From Dokdonella fugitiva (GTDB taxonomy: Bacteria; Pseudomonadota; Gammaproteobacteria; Xanthomonadales; Rhodanobacteraceae), in contig NZ_SLWQ01000002.1 in assembly GCF_004342425.1 (NCBI RefSeq), positions 310,001 through 374,000 on the forward strand: 64,000 nt of DNA, written 5' to 3'. Below are positions 4,862 through 21,980 of the stretch, in pieces. Each line of letters opens with the position of its first letter. Within the stretch, counting starts at the first letter, position 1. A model generated the notes under the pieces. It was not told the origin of the DNA. It worked only from the letters and a program-made list of their open reading frames with translations, and searched no databases. Made by a program: the position numbers and the translations under genes.

Positions 4862-5245
4862 TCACCATTCCGCGGGCGCGGCGGCGTCGAATCCGTCGAC
4901 GAGGATGCGATCGACGACGACGACCACGCCGCGCATGCCGCTGGTCTGGTCACCGTGCTGTTCGCAGTAGTAGCCGATGCTGCCGACGCGGTTGAAGCGC
5001 ACCGACACCTGCCATGGCTGGCTGCTCGGCGCGTTGTGCAGGTTGCAGTCGAGCGCGCAGGTGAAGCTGCCGTCGTCGGCGCGCACGTTGTGCAGGCCGC
5101 CGGCGTTGACGAAGCGGACCGAATCACCCTGGTAGATCTCGAGCTGGGCGGGCGTGAACGTCATGTCCTCGTTCGCGGTCACGACGAACGAACGCGCGTG
5201 CGCGTGCGCCGCGCCGAACACGCAGGCGAATGCAAGCCATCGCAT
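4862..5245 (-). CDS. Small exported cupredoxin (plastocyanin-like copper protein)
   Basis: A 127-residue protein with a signal peptide (about 1-17, MRWLAFACVFGAAHAHA). The mature part has the blue-copper fold order: ANEDMTFTPAQLEIYQGDSVRFVN strands, His52, then a Cys94-x2-His97-x6-Met104 loop (YYCEQHGDQTSGM), which would be the copper ligands. An additional Cys63/Cys67 pair sits in a loop. The C-terminus ends with DRILVDGFD (112-120), a pattern shared with two other exported proteins here. The start at 5245 lies 4 bp after the DUF1501 stop codon, so translation is probably coupled. Likely role: periplasmic or extracellular electron transfer; the partner is unknown but may be the DUF1501/DUF1800 pair. 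Confidence 0.82.
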   Translation of the reverse strand: MRWLAFACVFGAAHAHARSFVVTANEDMTFTPAQLEIYQGDSVRFVNAGGLHNVRADDGSFTCALDCNLHNAPSSQPWQVSVRFNRVGSIGYYCEQHGDQTSGMRGVVVVVDRILVDGFDAAAPAEW

Positions 5246-5249
5246 CCGG

Positions 5250-6773
5250 TCAGGCCATGAAGCCGAGATCGCCGCCACCGGGGAAACGGCCGAGGTTCGG
5301 GAACAGGTCCGCGATGCCGCCGGCATCGACGCCGAACCAACGCGCGAGCGTGGCCGAATACTGGTCGACGGCGAGCGTCGGGATGATCTGGCCATAACCG
5401 GTGTCATCGGGATTGCCGTTGCCGGGATGGCCTTCATCGTACTGCGCCAGCGACGGCATGAGGCCGTAGAAGCGCTGGCCGCGAACGGCGCCGCCGACGA
5501 CGAAATGATGGCCACCCCAGCCGTGGTCGGTGCCGTCGCTGTTGACCGCGAGCGAACGGCCGAAGTCCGACGCGGTGAATGCGGTGACGCCTTCGGCGAC
5601 GTCCATTTCGACGGTCGCCGCGTGGAAGGCGGCAAGCGCCTGCGACAACTGCTCGAGGTTGCCGGCCTGGTCCGCGAGCTGCGAACCGTGCGTGTCGTAG
5701 TTGCCGACCGAAACGAAGAACACCTGGCGGCTCATGCCGAGCGCCGCGCGCACCTTGATCATGAGCGCGACGGCGGCGAGCTGGTTGCCGAGATCGGTGT
5801 CGGGGAACCGCGTCTGCAGGCGCGTGCCCGTCATCGCGGCATTGAGCAGCGCCGCATTGGCGATCGCGCGGTTGGCCGTGTCGGCGAACGCGCGTTCGAG
5901 CACGTGCGCCTGAGTGCCGCTCGCGCGCAGCGCGTCGTACGCGGCGCGACGCCCGGGATCATTGCCGACGACCCAGGATTCCGGGCCGTCGCCGCGGAAG
6001 CTCATGCCCTGTACCTGGAAGAAATCGACCGGGTCGCCGCCCTCGTCGACGCCGGCCGCGGCGAACGCCGCACCGTAGGAGTCGACCGCGAACTGGTTGA
6101 CGGTTGTCGCGCGCTGGAAGCGGTTCTCGCCCGACAGCGTGATGCTCATCGGCAGGTCGCCCAAGTTGGCGCTGTACAGCATGTCGGCGATGCGCCCGCC
6201 CCAGCCGTTCGCGTTCGCATCGTCGGGGCGCGAGGTCTGCCACTGATTGGTCTGGTCGTCATGCGAGTACAGCTGTGCCGGCGTCGGCACGCTGCCGCTC
6301 TGGTACTGCTGCTGCGTGATCGGGTACAGCAGCGAGCCGACGTTGGCGACGATCGCGGCCTTGCCGCTGTTGAACAGCCCGCGCAGGCCCGCATTGCCGT
6401 TCGTGAGCTGCCCCATCGACGGGTGCATGCCGTACGTCGCGCCGTCGCTCGGCGGGCCGCCGGGCAGGCCGCCCTGTGCCGGCAGCGGATTGAGCACGTT
6501 CTGCTGCAGGCCGGCCTGGGGTATCGCCAGGCCCTGGCGCGTGCCCTGGTAGATCCCGTAGTGCGTCGAATCGCAGGGGACGATCGTGTTGAAGCTGTCG
6601 TTGCCGCCGTACAGGTAGACGCAGACGAGCGCCTTGTAGTCGGTGAACGCATGGCGATGCGCCGCGGCCGCCGCGGAAATCAGGCGCAGGTTGCCGAGGG
6701 CGCCGTGCAGGCTGGCGCCGCCGAGCGCGGCGCAGATGCTCCGCCGCAGGAATTCACGTCGATTCACGTGCAT
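5250..6773 (-). CDS. DUF1501 family protein, Tat-exported
   Basis: A 507-residue protein. The ATG at 6773 is preceded by GAGAGGA and begins MHVNRREFLRRSICAALGGASL, a clear twin-arginine signal (RREFLRR). The DUF1501 core starts with VCVYLYGGNDSFNTIVP near residue 50 and ends with HGWGGHHFVVGG and a C-terminal YSATLARWFG. DUF1501 belongs to the alkaline-phosphatase/sulfatase-like superfamily, but its biochemical function is not established. Tat export implies folding, possibly with a metal, in the cytoplasm. It follows the DUF1800 gene by 46 bp, the usual pairing of these two families, and precedes the cupredoxin by 4 bp. Confidence 0.9.
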   Translation of the reverse strand: MHVNRREFLRRSICAALGGASLHGALGNLRLISAAAAAHRHAFTDYKALVCVYLYGGNDSFNTIVPCDSTHYGIYQGTRQGLAIPQAGLQQNVLNPLPAQGGLPGGPPSDGATYGMHPSMGQLTNGNAGLRGLFNSGKAAIVANVGSLLYPITQQQYQSGSVPTPAQLYSHDDQTNQWQTSRPDDANANGWGGRIADMLYSANLGDLPMSITLSGENRFQRATTVNQFAVDSYGAAFAAAGVDEGGDPVDFFQVQGMSFRGDGPESWVVGNDPGRRAAYDALRASGTQAHVLERAFADTANRAIANAALLNAAMTGTRLQTRFPDTDLGNQLAAVALMIKVRAALGMSRQVFFVSVGNYDTHGSQLADQAGNLEQLSQALAAFHAATVEMDVAEGVTAFTASDFGRSLAVNSDGTDHGWGGHHFVVGGAVRGQRFYGLMPSLAQYDEGHPGNGNPDDTGYGQIIPTLAVDQYSATLARWFGVDAGGIADLFPNLGRFPGGGDLGFMA

Positions 6774-6819
6774 GGGAGGATCCTCTCGGCCTAAGCGGTC
6801 GGGCCGCCGGCAGCGCGGC

Positions 6820-8709
6820 TCATTTCTGGATCGAGTATTCGGGCGAATTGAAGACGAGGTAGAGCGCTTCCTGCACGCGCGCACGGCCGATGTCGTCGTA
6901 GTCGTCCGCATCCATCGCAAGCAGCCGCGTGACGATCACGTTGCGCATGAACGGCGACATCTGCCCGCCCATCATGAGCACGTCGTAGCGATCGACGAGC
7001 GCGGCGGGATTGCTCGCCGCGAGGGGCGCGTCGCGCGCCTCGTTCACCTGCAGCGTCTGCGGATCGTCGGCGTCCCAGCAGGCGTCGCTCGCGGTGTAGT
7101 TGCAGAAGACCTGGTGGAACAGGTAGTTCGGCATCGCCGTCGACGTCGTGTCGCCGAGAATCTGGAACTCGGGACTGACCAGCCCGCGCGTGCGCACTTC
7201 GCCCGGTTGCGCGAAGTCGGGCTTGAAGAAGTTGAATACCGTCGGCGAATACAGCGGCGCCTCGCCGATCTGTTCGACGATCGGCGGCCAGGTGTCGAGG
7301 TTGGCCGGACGGCCGCTGTACACGGGGTTTCCGGTCGGCGTGCGCGAAGCCATCGCGCGCCAGAGCTGGGTGATCCTCAGCAGCGGTTCGCGCAGCTTGC
7401 CGAACGTGTCCGGCTTCTGCCATTGGCCGTAGCGCGCTTCGGGATCGAGCAGGATCGCCTTGACCACGGCCTTGAGGTTGCCGCGCACGTGCGCCGCGCT
7501 GCCGTCGTCGTTGAACACGCGCGCGACGCGCTGCACGTAGGCGGGCGTCGGGTTGCTGGTCACGAGGCGCTGGATCAGGCGGATCGCGATGAACGGGCCG
7601 ACGTTGGGATGGTTGAACACGTTGTCGAGCGCGGCGGTCAATTCCGCCTGTGCAGTGCCGCCGTGCAGGAGTACGCCACCCGGCAGCGCCACGCCCGGAT
7701 AGTCGAGCAACTGCTTGTCCGTCGTGTCGTCGTGCCAGTATTCGACCGGTTCCATCGGTCGCTGCCACGCCGGGTCGTCGGCGTTGGCGGGGCCGCAGTA
7801 GAAGTACTGCCACGGGTTGTCCGGATTGTCGCAACAGAGCGGCATTCCGTCCTGGTAGTCGATGCTGCAGCCGATGCTGTTGAAGTCCCAGCCGGTGAAC
7901 ACCGCGGCGAAACCCCTCACGGTCTCCTGGCCGTAGGTCGGCACCGGCTGGCCGCCGACGAGCTTGGGCGTGCCGTCGAGGTTGAGCTGCACGAGGCCGA
8001 TCGAGAACAGCTGGTTGATCTCGCGCGCGTAGTTCTCGTCCGGATGGATGTTCTCATCCGGGTCGGCCTTCTGGTTCTGGATCGAACTGAGGAACACCCC
8101 CATCGCGGGATGCTTGGTCACGTCCTCGAGCAGGGTACGGTAGTTGCCGAACGCGTCCGCCGCGAGCATGTCGTAGAAACTCGCGAGCGCCCACGGTTGC
8201 TGCGCGAGCGTGCCGTTGCTGTTGGAGACGACGAAGATTTCGCTCAGCGCGAACGCGACGCGCTGGCGCAACTGGTCGGTGGGCACCTGCTGCGAACGAC
8301 TCGGGTCGGGCGTGCCGACCGAATTGATCGTCCACGCCTGCAGGCGCGTGCCGCTCCACTCCGCGACCTCGTTGCAGTACTCGTCGTCGCCGGGGCAGGA
8401 CAAGCCCTGCACCCAGTCGAGGTAGGGCACCTGCTTCGACGGCGCCCTGGCGAACTGTTCGGCGAGCCACGCCTCGTAGCCGACCGCGCGCAGGTGCGCG
8501 ATCTCTTCGAGGGTGGCGCCGAACGTCGCCTGGGCGAGGAAGCGCGATGCATCGGCGTCGGTCGCCGGTCCCCCGCCGATGCCTTCGAAGCCGTCATGGA
8601 AGTTCTGGTCGGGCCAGTGGCTCTGCGCATGCGTGCGCACGACCGGCAACGCACACAGGCACGCCAGCGCGACGACCCGGAAGTCCTGCAGGGATCTTGC
8701 GAAGCGCAT
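6820..8709 (-). CDS. DUF1800 family exported protein
   Basis: A 629-residue protein. The start at 8709 follows GGGAGGGGAGA. Residues 1-29 are a Sec signal peptide (RVVALACLCALPVVRTHAQ). The mature N terminus carries DQNFHDGFE (34-42), the shared peptide pattern described under findings. The DUF1800 domain follows, beginning ASRFLAQATFGATLEEI, with PDENIHPDENYAREINQLFSIGL in the middle and a C-terminal EALYLVFNSPEYSIQK. The family is nearly always found beside DUF1501, and no enzymatic activity is known. Being first in the DUF1800-DUF1501-cupredoxin operon, it probably forms an extracytoplasmic complex or pathway with them (inference). Confidence 0.9.
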   Translation of the reverse strand: MRFARSLQDFRVVALACLCALPVVRTHAQSHWPDQNFHDGFEGIGGGPATDADASRFLAQATFGATLEEIAHLRAVGYEAWLAEQFARAPSKQVPYLDWVQGLSCPGDDEYCNEVAEWSGTRLQAWTINSVGTPDPSRSQQVPTDQLRQRVAFALSEIFVVSNSNGTLAQQPWALASFYDMLAADAFGNYRTLLEDVTKHPAMGVFLSSIQNQKADPDENIHPDENYAREINQLFSIGLVQLNLDGTPKLVGGQPVPTYGQETVRGFAAVFTGWDFNSIGCSIDYQDGMPLCCDNPDNPWQYFYCGPANADDPAWQRPMEPVEYWHDDTTDKQLLDYPGVALPGGVLLHGGTAQAELTAALDNVFNHPNVGPFIAIRLIQRLVTSNPTPAYVQRVARVFNDDGSAAHVRGNLKAVVKAILLDPEARYGQWQKPDTFGKLREPLLRITQLWRAMASRTPTGNPVYSGRPANLDTWPPIVEQIGEAPLYSPTVFNFFKPDFAQPGEVRTRGLVSPEFQILGDTTSTAMPNYLFHQVFCNYTASDACWDADDPQTLQVNEARDAPLAASNPAALVDRYDVLMMGGQMSPFMRNVIVTRLLAMDADDYDDIGRARVQEALYLVFNSPEYSIQK

Positions 8710-20441: not shown

Positions 20442-21980
20442 TCAACGCTCGTGGGCACCGATGTCGATTGCGTTGCCGGCGACGCGCGGACCGCCCGCGT
20501 AGTCGAGCAGGCCGGCCAGACCATCACCCGGATCGATGCCGGCGTCGATTGCAGGCGACCCCGCGTCGACGCGCAGGTCCGGCGCGAGGAGGTCGAGGAA
20601 CAACGGATCGGCGAACGGCGAATGCGCATCCTGCGACGAACCGGTGCGCCACGCCGCGAGGCTGTCGTAGTCGGTGCCGCGCCAGGTCCAGCTCGCACCC
20701 GCCGCGCCCGCATCGGACCAGTAGAGGTTGTGGTCGAACACGGCGGGCAAGGCGGTGTCGCCGGTGTAGGCGTAGACGAGCACGCCGGCAGGCCCCGCGT
20801 ACAACACGTTGTCGACGACGAGGTTGTCGCTAGCGTGGTACTGGATCTGCAGCTCGCCCGAGCCCGTGCCCCGCACGTCGTTGCGCACCAGGGTATTGCC
20901 GATCACCGAGCAGTGTTCGGTACCGCCGACCCCGGCGGCGTAGCCGCCGAGCGAGATGCCGCTCGAGTTGCCCGAATGGATGATGTTCGACCGCGCCACG
21001 ACATGGCTCGTCGTGCGCCCGGCGTGCTCGCTCGCGAGCTCGATGCCGAGGTCGACGCGGTATACGAGGTTGCGCTCGATCGTGACGCGCGTGCCGCCGT
21101 CGACGTAGATGCCGTCGGCGGCGTACTCGTTGCCGTAGGCCGGGTTGCCGTACGAGCTGATGTCGTGGACGACGTTGCCGGCGATCGTGCCGTCGCGCGC
21201 CTGGTCGAAGGCGGGATCCGGCGCGACGCCCTCGAAGCCGATCGCGCCGATGCCGATGTTGTTGGCGTGGTGCACGTGGTTGCCGCTGATCGTCCATTGC
21301 TCGACGTTGCCGTCGAGCGAGAACGATTCGCTGCAGCCGAGCACGAGATGGTCGATCTCGTTGCCGGCGATCACGAGATGGTTGATCGACGCGGGCGCGC
21401 GCGTGCCGTCGACCTTCAGGCCGAACGCATTCGCTGCGCAACCGCTCGCCGTCGTACGGATGTCGTGGATGTGGTTGCCGAGCACGCGGATGTCGCTGCC
21501 CGCGCCGGTCACGTACAGGCCGATCGGCACCTTCGAGGACGACGCGGTCGCATAGTTGCGCAGCTCGAGGCCGGCCACGACGACATGGCTCGCGTCGACG
21601 AGCGTGACGAGGCCGTACTGGCCGCCGGGGATCGGCAATCCCGCGCCGTCGACGACCGCGGCCTCGCCGGGCACCGCCTGCAGCACGATCGGCCCGGCCA
21701 CTTCCGAACCCGAACGCGCGATCGTCACGAGCTCGTTGTAGATGCCTGCATGCACGCATATCGCGTCGCCCGCCGCGACCATGTCCACGGCGTGCTGGAT
21801 CGTCGCCCATGGCGACGAGGCGCTGCCGTCGGCGCCGTCATCGCCCACTGGTGCGACGTGGTAGGCGTGCAACGGCGGGCGCTCGAAACCGGAGCCGAAC
21901 ACGGTGTCGCCCGTGCGCGGGCACTGTGCGGATACGAGCGATGCCACGCAGTACAGCGCGAGCCCGGGGATCATGCGCAT
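20442..21980 (-). CDS. Secreted right-handed parallel beta-helix protein
   Basis: A 512-residue protein. A signal peptide covers 1-18 (MIPGLALYCVASLVSA); mature residues 25-33 are DTVFGSGFE, the pattern shared with two other exported proteins here. A DUF1565-like start follows (YHVAPVGDDGADGSASSPWATIQHAV), and then repeated N-x-[IV] rungs (NHIHDI, NEIDHL, NHVHHA, NVVHDI, NLVYRV, NIIHSG), typical of pectate-lyase-like beta-helices. The C-terminus has AGSPAIDAGIDPG and AIDIGAHE, a common end of such surface proteins. It may bind or cleave polysaccharide; no catalytic residues can be assigned. The ATG at 21980 is chosen because GAGGCAG precedes it. Confidence 0.82.
   Translation of the reverse strand: MRMIPGLALYCVASLVSAQCPRTGDTVFGSGFERPPLHAYHVAPVGDDGADGSASSPWATIQHAVDMVAAGDAICVHAGIYNELVTIARSGSEVAGPIVLQAVPGEAAVVDGAGLPIPGGQYGLVTLVDASHVVVAGLELRNYATASSSKVPIGLYVTGAGSDIRVLGNHIHDIRTTASGCAANAFGLKVDGTRAPASINHLVIAGNEIDHLVLGCSESFSLDGNVEQWTISGNHVHHANNIGIGAIGFEGVAPDPAFDQARDGTIAGNVVHDISSYGNPAYGNEYAADGIYVDGGTRVTIERNLVYRVDLGIELASEHAGRTTSHVVARSNIIHSGNSSGISLGGYAAGVGGTEHCSVIGNTLVRNDVRGTGSGELQIQYHASDNLVVDNVLYAGPAGVLVYAYTGDTALPAVFDHNLYWSDAGAAGASWTWRGTDYDSLAAWRTGSSQDAHSPFADPLFLDLLAPDLRVDAGSPAIDAGIDPGDGLAGLLDYAGGPRVAGNAIDIGAHER

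Follow-up and report, generated by a model that had tools for sequence, protein, structure and literature searches.

The 64,000-nucleotide stretch of the Dokdonella fugitiva genome analyzed here (the window) encodes three exported proteins that each carry one copy of a short peptide of nine residues, the tag that is the subject of this study. The three peptides had been pointed out in an initial annotation of the window, and a six-frame scan with the looser expression D..[FLIVMY]..GF[EDQN] confirmed them at these three places only, all on the minus strand. The features are as follows.

4862..5245, minus strand: exported cupredoxin (plastocyanin/azurin family) of 127 amino acids (Pfam PF00127, 39.5 bits)
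4886..4912, minus strand: C-terminal tag DRILVDGFD of the cupredoxin, ending 7 residues before the stop (window scan)
5250..6773, minus strand: presumably DUF1501-like protein with a Tat-type N terminus, untagged (translation read by the authors, window scan; the name is our assumption and does not come from a family search)
6820..8709, minus strand: exported DUF1800 protein of 629 amino acids (Pfam PF08811, 269.6 bits)
8584..8610, minus strand: N-terminal tag DQNFHDGFE of the DUF1800 protein, directly after the signal peptide (window scan)
20442..21980, minus strand: exported right-handed beta-helix protein of 512 amino acids (Pfam PF13229, 40 bits)
21882..21908, minus strand: N-terminal tag DTVFGSGFE of the beta-helix protein, directly after the signal peptide (window scan)

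The cupredoxin, DUF1501-like and DUF1800 genes are arranged head to tail on the minus strand (4862-8709), the outer two being tagged and the middle one untagged. The distance of seven residues between the cupredoxin tag and the C terminus was correctly described in the initial annotation, while the residue numbers 34-42 that it assigned to the DUF1800 tag in the mature chain are in fact those of the precursor. With signal peptides read by eye rather than called by a predictor, the tag begins approximately 5 residues into the mature DUF1800 protein and approximately 7 residues into the mature beta-helix protein. The latter also matches the NCBIfam choice-of-anchor Q domain at residues 469-511 (28.7 bits; cut-off 25).

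The D. fugitiva genome (4.28 Mb, 35 contigs) was scanned with a loose pattern, D-x-x-[F or L, few rarer codons]-x-x-G-F-[DE], and a strict pattern, D-x-[FLIMV]-F-x-[DN]-G-F-[DE], using the same patterns reversed as control. The loose pattern was found at 129 places compared to 4 for its reverse, and the strict pattern at 99 places compared to 0, so that the expectation of a motif well above background was borne out in this adapted check. The nine-residue motif D-x-[ILV]-F-x-[DN]-[GS]-F-[DE] is shown here to be a conserved tag, present at about 100 places in the genome and mostly at the ends of predicted exported proteins. Residues D1, F4, G7 and F8, as well as D/N/S at position 6 and D/E at position 9, were imposed by the search patterns.

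Ninety-seven copies, from 100 places listed among the 129 loose-pattern places, were read in open frames (C8:229310, C8:232985 and C9:12181 were left out of the reading; 29 further places lie outside the listing). Sixty-seven of these 97 copies lie within 8 residues of the stop and 5 at 9-30 residues from it, 8 are found within 60 residues of a start picked by a crude signal-peptide rule, and 17 occur elsewhere. Most copies are accordingly located at protein ends, and others lie inside proteins. Of 81 core copies, 62 are C-terminal, 20 of them with the stop directly after the tag. These 62 have I at position 3 in 47 cases, D (39) or N (19) at position 6, and D (48) or E (14) at position 9. N-terminal copies follow what we read as putative signal peptides, in DUF1800 proteins, a GH18 protein (Pfam) and others; in L235 a copy follows a signal that we read as Tat-like. 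Internal copies interrupt two S8 subtilases, L061 (C1:232386) and L157 (C6:24480), in apparent loops, one of them by our reading in a putative PA-domain loop. Relatives also hold tandem tags approximately 30 bases apart (e.g. G337:C33:167657 and 167687), and the first D is absent from some copies. A form with S or R at position 7 gave at least one match in 74 of 200 genomes of the order to which D. fugitiva belongs, and is the main form in most genomes of genus g13 (family f10); this search covered AGN and CGN codons and missed serine TCN codons, so that tag counts are lower bounds. In L055 (G028) the tag stands directly after the signal peptide and is followed by a longer form, IFADGFETGDTSAWT. 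Judging from this arrangement, the tag may have descended from the first strand of a jelly-roll domain.

Predicted structure models of two of the window's proteins place the tag outside the folded parts. In the cupredoxin model the last strand comprises residues 105-111 and the tag, residues 112-120, lies beyond it with a predicted local distance difference test (pLDDT) score of approximately 66-67. In the DUF1800 model, of modest quality (mean pLDDT 62), the tag falls in a stretch with pLDDT below 50 preceding a helix at 51-61. A role of the tag as part of a fold is therefore disfavoured for the two modelled proteins. Homologues of both proteins were inspected with the expression D..[FLIM]..[GSR]F[DEQN]. 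In the last 45 residues of the cupredoxins it was found in 118 of 120 listed homologues (152 found, the window's own included), the named ones being mostly from Dokdonella, and in the first 80 residues of the DUF1800 proteins in 95 of 120 listed homologues (7,999 scored); most of the other 25 deviate, by our reading, at one position. The tag is thus kept at the same place in homologues, as had been anticipated.

The families of the carriers were studied with 70 of the 76 tagged proteins of the D. fugitiva genome, those having a start and a stop. These match 71 Pfam families, of which the 25 listed are mostly of beta-helix, beta-propeller, peptidase and Fn3 types. The choice-of-anchor Q domain (NCBIfam) is present in 12 of the 70, and matches to anchor-named families were found for GlyGly-CTERM (rhombosortase-dependent) in 2, MYXO-CTERM in 1 and LPXTG in 3. 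In 10 proteins scanned with coordinates, no NCBIfam (at E 5) or Pfam stretch covers the tag. None of the best 25 of the 71 Pfam families is named for it, and none of the best 25 of 49 NCBIfam families (70 proteins, E 0.001; coordinates for one member only) is a CTERM model at the tag; within these searches the absence of a named family, claimed initially, was upheld. Enrichment of the tag in exported over cytoplasmic proteins was assessed with the crude signal-peptide rule, which accepted 43 of 79 core-tagged proteins compared to 1.8 expected after shuffling, a difference that is inflated because start codons were chosen with a looser form of the same rule.

The tag is nearly confined to one bacterial order among the genomes sampled, and is patchy within it, in agreement with the lineage specificity suggested at the outset. 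In the genus, 15 of 16 genomes have 25-167 strict copies and one, G001 (80 % complete), has none. The form with G at position 7 was found in 79 of 200 genomes of the order; in families f1, f2 and f8 most genera hold zero or one tag. Among 229 genomes of the class that belong to other orders, 14 gave 1-2 matches (15 loci), nearly all of them background by our reading, with only L109 resembling a genuine C-terminal tag.

Most tagged genomes also have a second type II secretion system (T2SS), here named T2SS-B. When a panel of 44 genomes was searched for the secretin GspD, 24 of 25 tagged genomes had two matches above the cut-off, and GspD trees (with rows L246, L249 and L305 reframed in a later tree) separated a clade A, whose rows come from both tagged and untagged genomes, from a clade B. 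From the gene order in L262 we take clade A to be of the Xps type. Clade-B loci have the order rhlB-gspC-gspD-gspE, in some genomes directly followed by gspF-ftsE-ftsX, where rhlB, ftsE and ftsX are names that we assume. In D. fugitiva the components score 564.5 bits for GspD-B (cut-off 351), 677 for GspE-B (630), 479 for GspF-B (424) and 195 for a second GspG (88.9). GspC-B reaches 97.1 bits compared to a cut-off of 101.6, its counterpart in G434 scores 115.7, and the Pfam T2SSC score is 83.8 (cut-off 27). The PDZ domain of GspC-B is borderline in Pfam (27.2 compared to 27) and can be aligned with solved PDZ chains of GspC proteins, for example OutC. By its GspC, GspD, GspE, GspF and GspG homologues, the five components examined, system B qualifies as a predicted T2SS. 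The second, distinct GspG (170-195 bits) was found in 13 of 13 genomes with clade B and in 0 of 12 without it, where the best GspG matches score 93-129 bits. A further type of secretin, scoring 437-635 bits with the clade-B profile, occurs in 17 genomes, mostly of family f2 (e.g. G438, G270 and G440) plus G427. The 11 of these entered in the tree all fell outside clade B, and such secretins possibly represent other T2SS classes of the order. In family f9, G266 has no GspD match and no tags; nearly all other sampled f9 genomes have tags and clade B.

The distribution of T2SS-B closely follows that of the tag. In the 44-genome panel clade B was present in 24 of 25 tagged and in 3 of 19 untagged genomes. 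Among the 200 genomes of the order, clade-B GspD was found in 75 of 79 genomes with at least 2 tags compared to 4 of 121 with fewer (Fisher p ~1e-44, uncorrected for ancestry). The profile used for this count was built from 20 of 24 clade-B GspD loci, whose source genomes match by construction, and clade-B calls comprise 73 genomes with a full match (772 bits or more) and 6 with a partial match, which were counted as B. The 24 B loci (323,518 bases) contain 3 tags and the 36 A loci (534,735 bases) 0; in G000 and G007, both of the genus, a tagged gene adjoins gspC-B divergently. For choice-of-anchor Q proteins, the 4 B genomes searched gave 14-43 matches each, and 14 of 63 non-B genomes gave 1-4. 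Of nine choice-of-anchor Q loci from B genomes, 8 end in the tag (5 full, 3 without the first D) and the ninth in an apparent IPTL-type tail. None of 21 such loci from non-B genomes shows the tag: IPTL-CTERM-like tails terminate at least 4 of them, and in at least 3 the stop comes right behind the domain. Frames for these readings were selected by script; some non-B frames are uncertain, and L362 runs off its locus. The IPTL name given to these tails is our assumption. IPTL-CTERM-like tails on choice-of-anchor Q proteins (L385, G000:C1:496277 region; L365, L376, L379 and L380) occur in the D. fugitiva genome itself and in relatives lacking the tag. N termini of DUF1800 proteins could be read at 15 of 21 loci, the other 6 being left out as unreadable. 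Fourteen are from tagged genomes, and clade B was shown for all of these genomes but G002. Four of these match the full expression and the others hold degenerate copies, some of them weak. The single N terminus from a non-B genome (G299) has no tag and a proline-rich linker in its place. A general T2SS signal was rejected as an explanation because clade-A GspD occurs in tagged and untagged genomes alike and the tag is almost absent from the rest of the class.

From this co-occurrence we consider it probable that the tag is a linear secretion signal read by T2SS-B. T2SSs export proteins after folding and also accept Tat-exported proteins. A carrier protein would cross the inner membrane by Sec (or Tat) and, once folded, would expose the tag in a flexible tail or loop. 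Binding of the tag, as suggested by the PelI and VesB systems described below, would then fall to GspC-B with its PDZ domain and to the periplasmic domains of GspD-B. These would deliver the folded protein to the pseudopilus for expulsion. For the clade-A T2SS, which is present with or without the tag, no tag would be needed. The freedom of tag position suits a system exporting folded proteins, in which a signal could act from any flexible part left exposed, and the tag appears to be positioned in this manner. We also lean, if only slightly, towards the fuller proposal that the tag is a proteome-wide, linear and position-independent signal, which takes about 100 unrelated folded proteins through a dedicated second T2SS and which was ancestral to the order and repeatedly lost together with its machine.

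Several observations weigh against these proposals. The link between tag and T2SS-B is a correlation, much of it shared ancestry. On the GspD-A tree (33 rows; the very long row L289 omitted, and two of three G314 copies, L284 and L290, dropped) a difference in the tag was seen in only 6 independent pairs; 3 of them show a change of B in the same way, 0 in the opposite way and 3 no change of B (sign test p 0.25). Tags without detected B occur in G295 (19), G306 (8), G336 (3) and G361 (51), and G306 also lacks a second GspG. Conversely, B is accompanied by one tag or none in G307, G321, G328, G391 and G001 (none); when the pattern was relaxed for G001, G321, G328 and G391, nothing was found that we would accept as a tag. 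The 17 genomes with related secretins have no tags. Finally, the DUF1501-like Tat-type protein of the window is untagged between two tagged neighbours.

Known signals resemble the tag in part. CTERM tags (PEP-, GlyGly-, IPTL- and MYXO-CTERM) are likewise short common ends on many unrelated exported proteins, partly of the same families. They have been outlined as a motif, a transmembrane helix and a basic cluster at the C terminus, and in the case of GlyGly-CTERM are patchy across genomes and co-distributed with a cognate machine (PMC3237569). In contrast, the nine-residue tag is additionally found close to the N terminus and within proteins, and in its C-terminal class the 0-8 residues following it leave no room for a transmembrane helix and a basic cluster. 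A known CTERM was rejected on the lack of room for the helix and of any model match. In PelI, a loop of 9 residues (loop 3) is described as a T2SS signal contacting GspC and GspD, an exposed region of the same length and a precedent for such contacts (PMC7949064). PelI-type signals, as portrayed there, are protein-specific and composite, without an apparent common linear sequence, unlike the present tag with one sequence about 100 times per genome. A portable immunoglobulin (Ig) fold of VesB of Vibrio cholerae was reported to make a periplasmic protein exit via the T2SS, dependent on the PDZ domain of EpsC (GspC); it is likewise a portable element for T2SS export, but consists of a whole Ig-like domain for one substrate (PMC12369372). 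The tag may also be compared with the C-terminal domains of the type IX secretion system (T9SS) of Bacteroidota. These are folded and comprise approximately 70-80 residues; they too form a common C-terminal region that routes many proteins to one machine, but are folded domains of another phylum, and no T9SS was looked for here.

The initial annotation suggested a sorting, anchoring or processing tag comparable to CTERM. A lineage tag on exported proteins was indeed found; secretion by T2SS-B appears likelier than covalent anchoring or processing, given the lack of room for a helix and basic tail, the N-terminal and internal copies and the co-occurrence with T2SS-B. An alternative of this kind, which we regard as unlikely, is a label for retention or anchoring at the cell surface, CTERM-like without the membrane helix, recognized by a surface receptor after any route of secretion and only indirectly linked to T2SS-B. 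The tag does occupy the place of known anchors, a share of its carriers have the choice-of-anchor Q domain and a few match CTERM- or LPXTG-named families, and IPTL-CTERM-like tails replace it in several choice-of-anchor Q proteins of non-B genomes. However, copies directly after signal peptides and inside the two S8 proteases ill suit a cleaved C-terminal anchor, and no candidate receptor turned up, though none was searched for.

It is rather improbable that the tag serves another machine of the lineage, such as a chaperone, protease or receptor, with T2SS-B being a different old trait lost in the same groups. Such a reading draws on the small number of independent co-changes (only three can be counted), on the exceptions in both directions and on the fact that T2SS-B was the sole family profiled over the 200 genomes. 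Against it, the fit holds in separate groups, namely the positive minority of families f1 and f2 and, with exceptions, of f8, and the B set (GspC, D, E, F and G) is of a system exporting folded periplasmic proteins, the very class that carries the tag.

A functionless mobile or vestigial coding repeat, either a stub of a jelly-roll first strand or an insertion like the Rickettsia palindromic elements, would be in line with the tags inside the two S8 proteases and with L055, in which the tag adjoins the longer IFADGFETGDTSAW form. It is made very improbable by synonymous conservation, the peptide being kept while AT-rich relatives use other codons, as well as by the fixed places in homologues and by the absence of most tags where T2SS-B is absent. 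The use of other codons for one and the same peptide in these relatives also rules out a repeat at the level of DNA. Matches arising by chance in a GC-rich genome are refuted by the counts with the reversed patterns, even if a handful of copies lies in seemingly unrelated frames or proteins, by our reading (e.g. DRHFGVGFD in a DapF-like protein), a number that agrees with the 4 places found for the reversed loose pattern.

The choice of cargo by the T2SS is a long-standing open question. In the literature, covered mostly at the level of titles and abstracts, no report of this motif or of a linear T2SS signal was found. Common linear sequences are apparently absent from T2SS substrates in the accounts available, and recognition is thought to be structural (PMC7949064; PMC12369372). 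The finding of the tag matters because of the statement by the VesB authors, as given in their report, that a linear universal signal is lacking (PMC12369372). If true, the proposed role of the tag would give the T2SS substrates of this lineage a linear signal in common and overturn, in their case, the general view that none exists. Its N-terminal, C-terminal and internal versions, together with the natural losses, would make cargo recognition by the T2SS directly testable. Furthermore, the tag would provide a simple rule for listing candidate secretomes across the order, and possibly a short export tag for harmless environmental bacteria.

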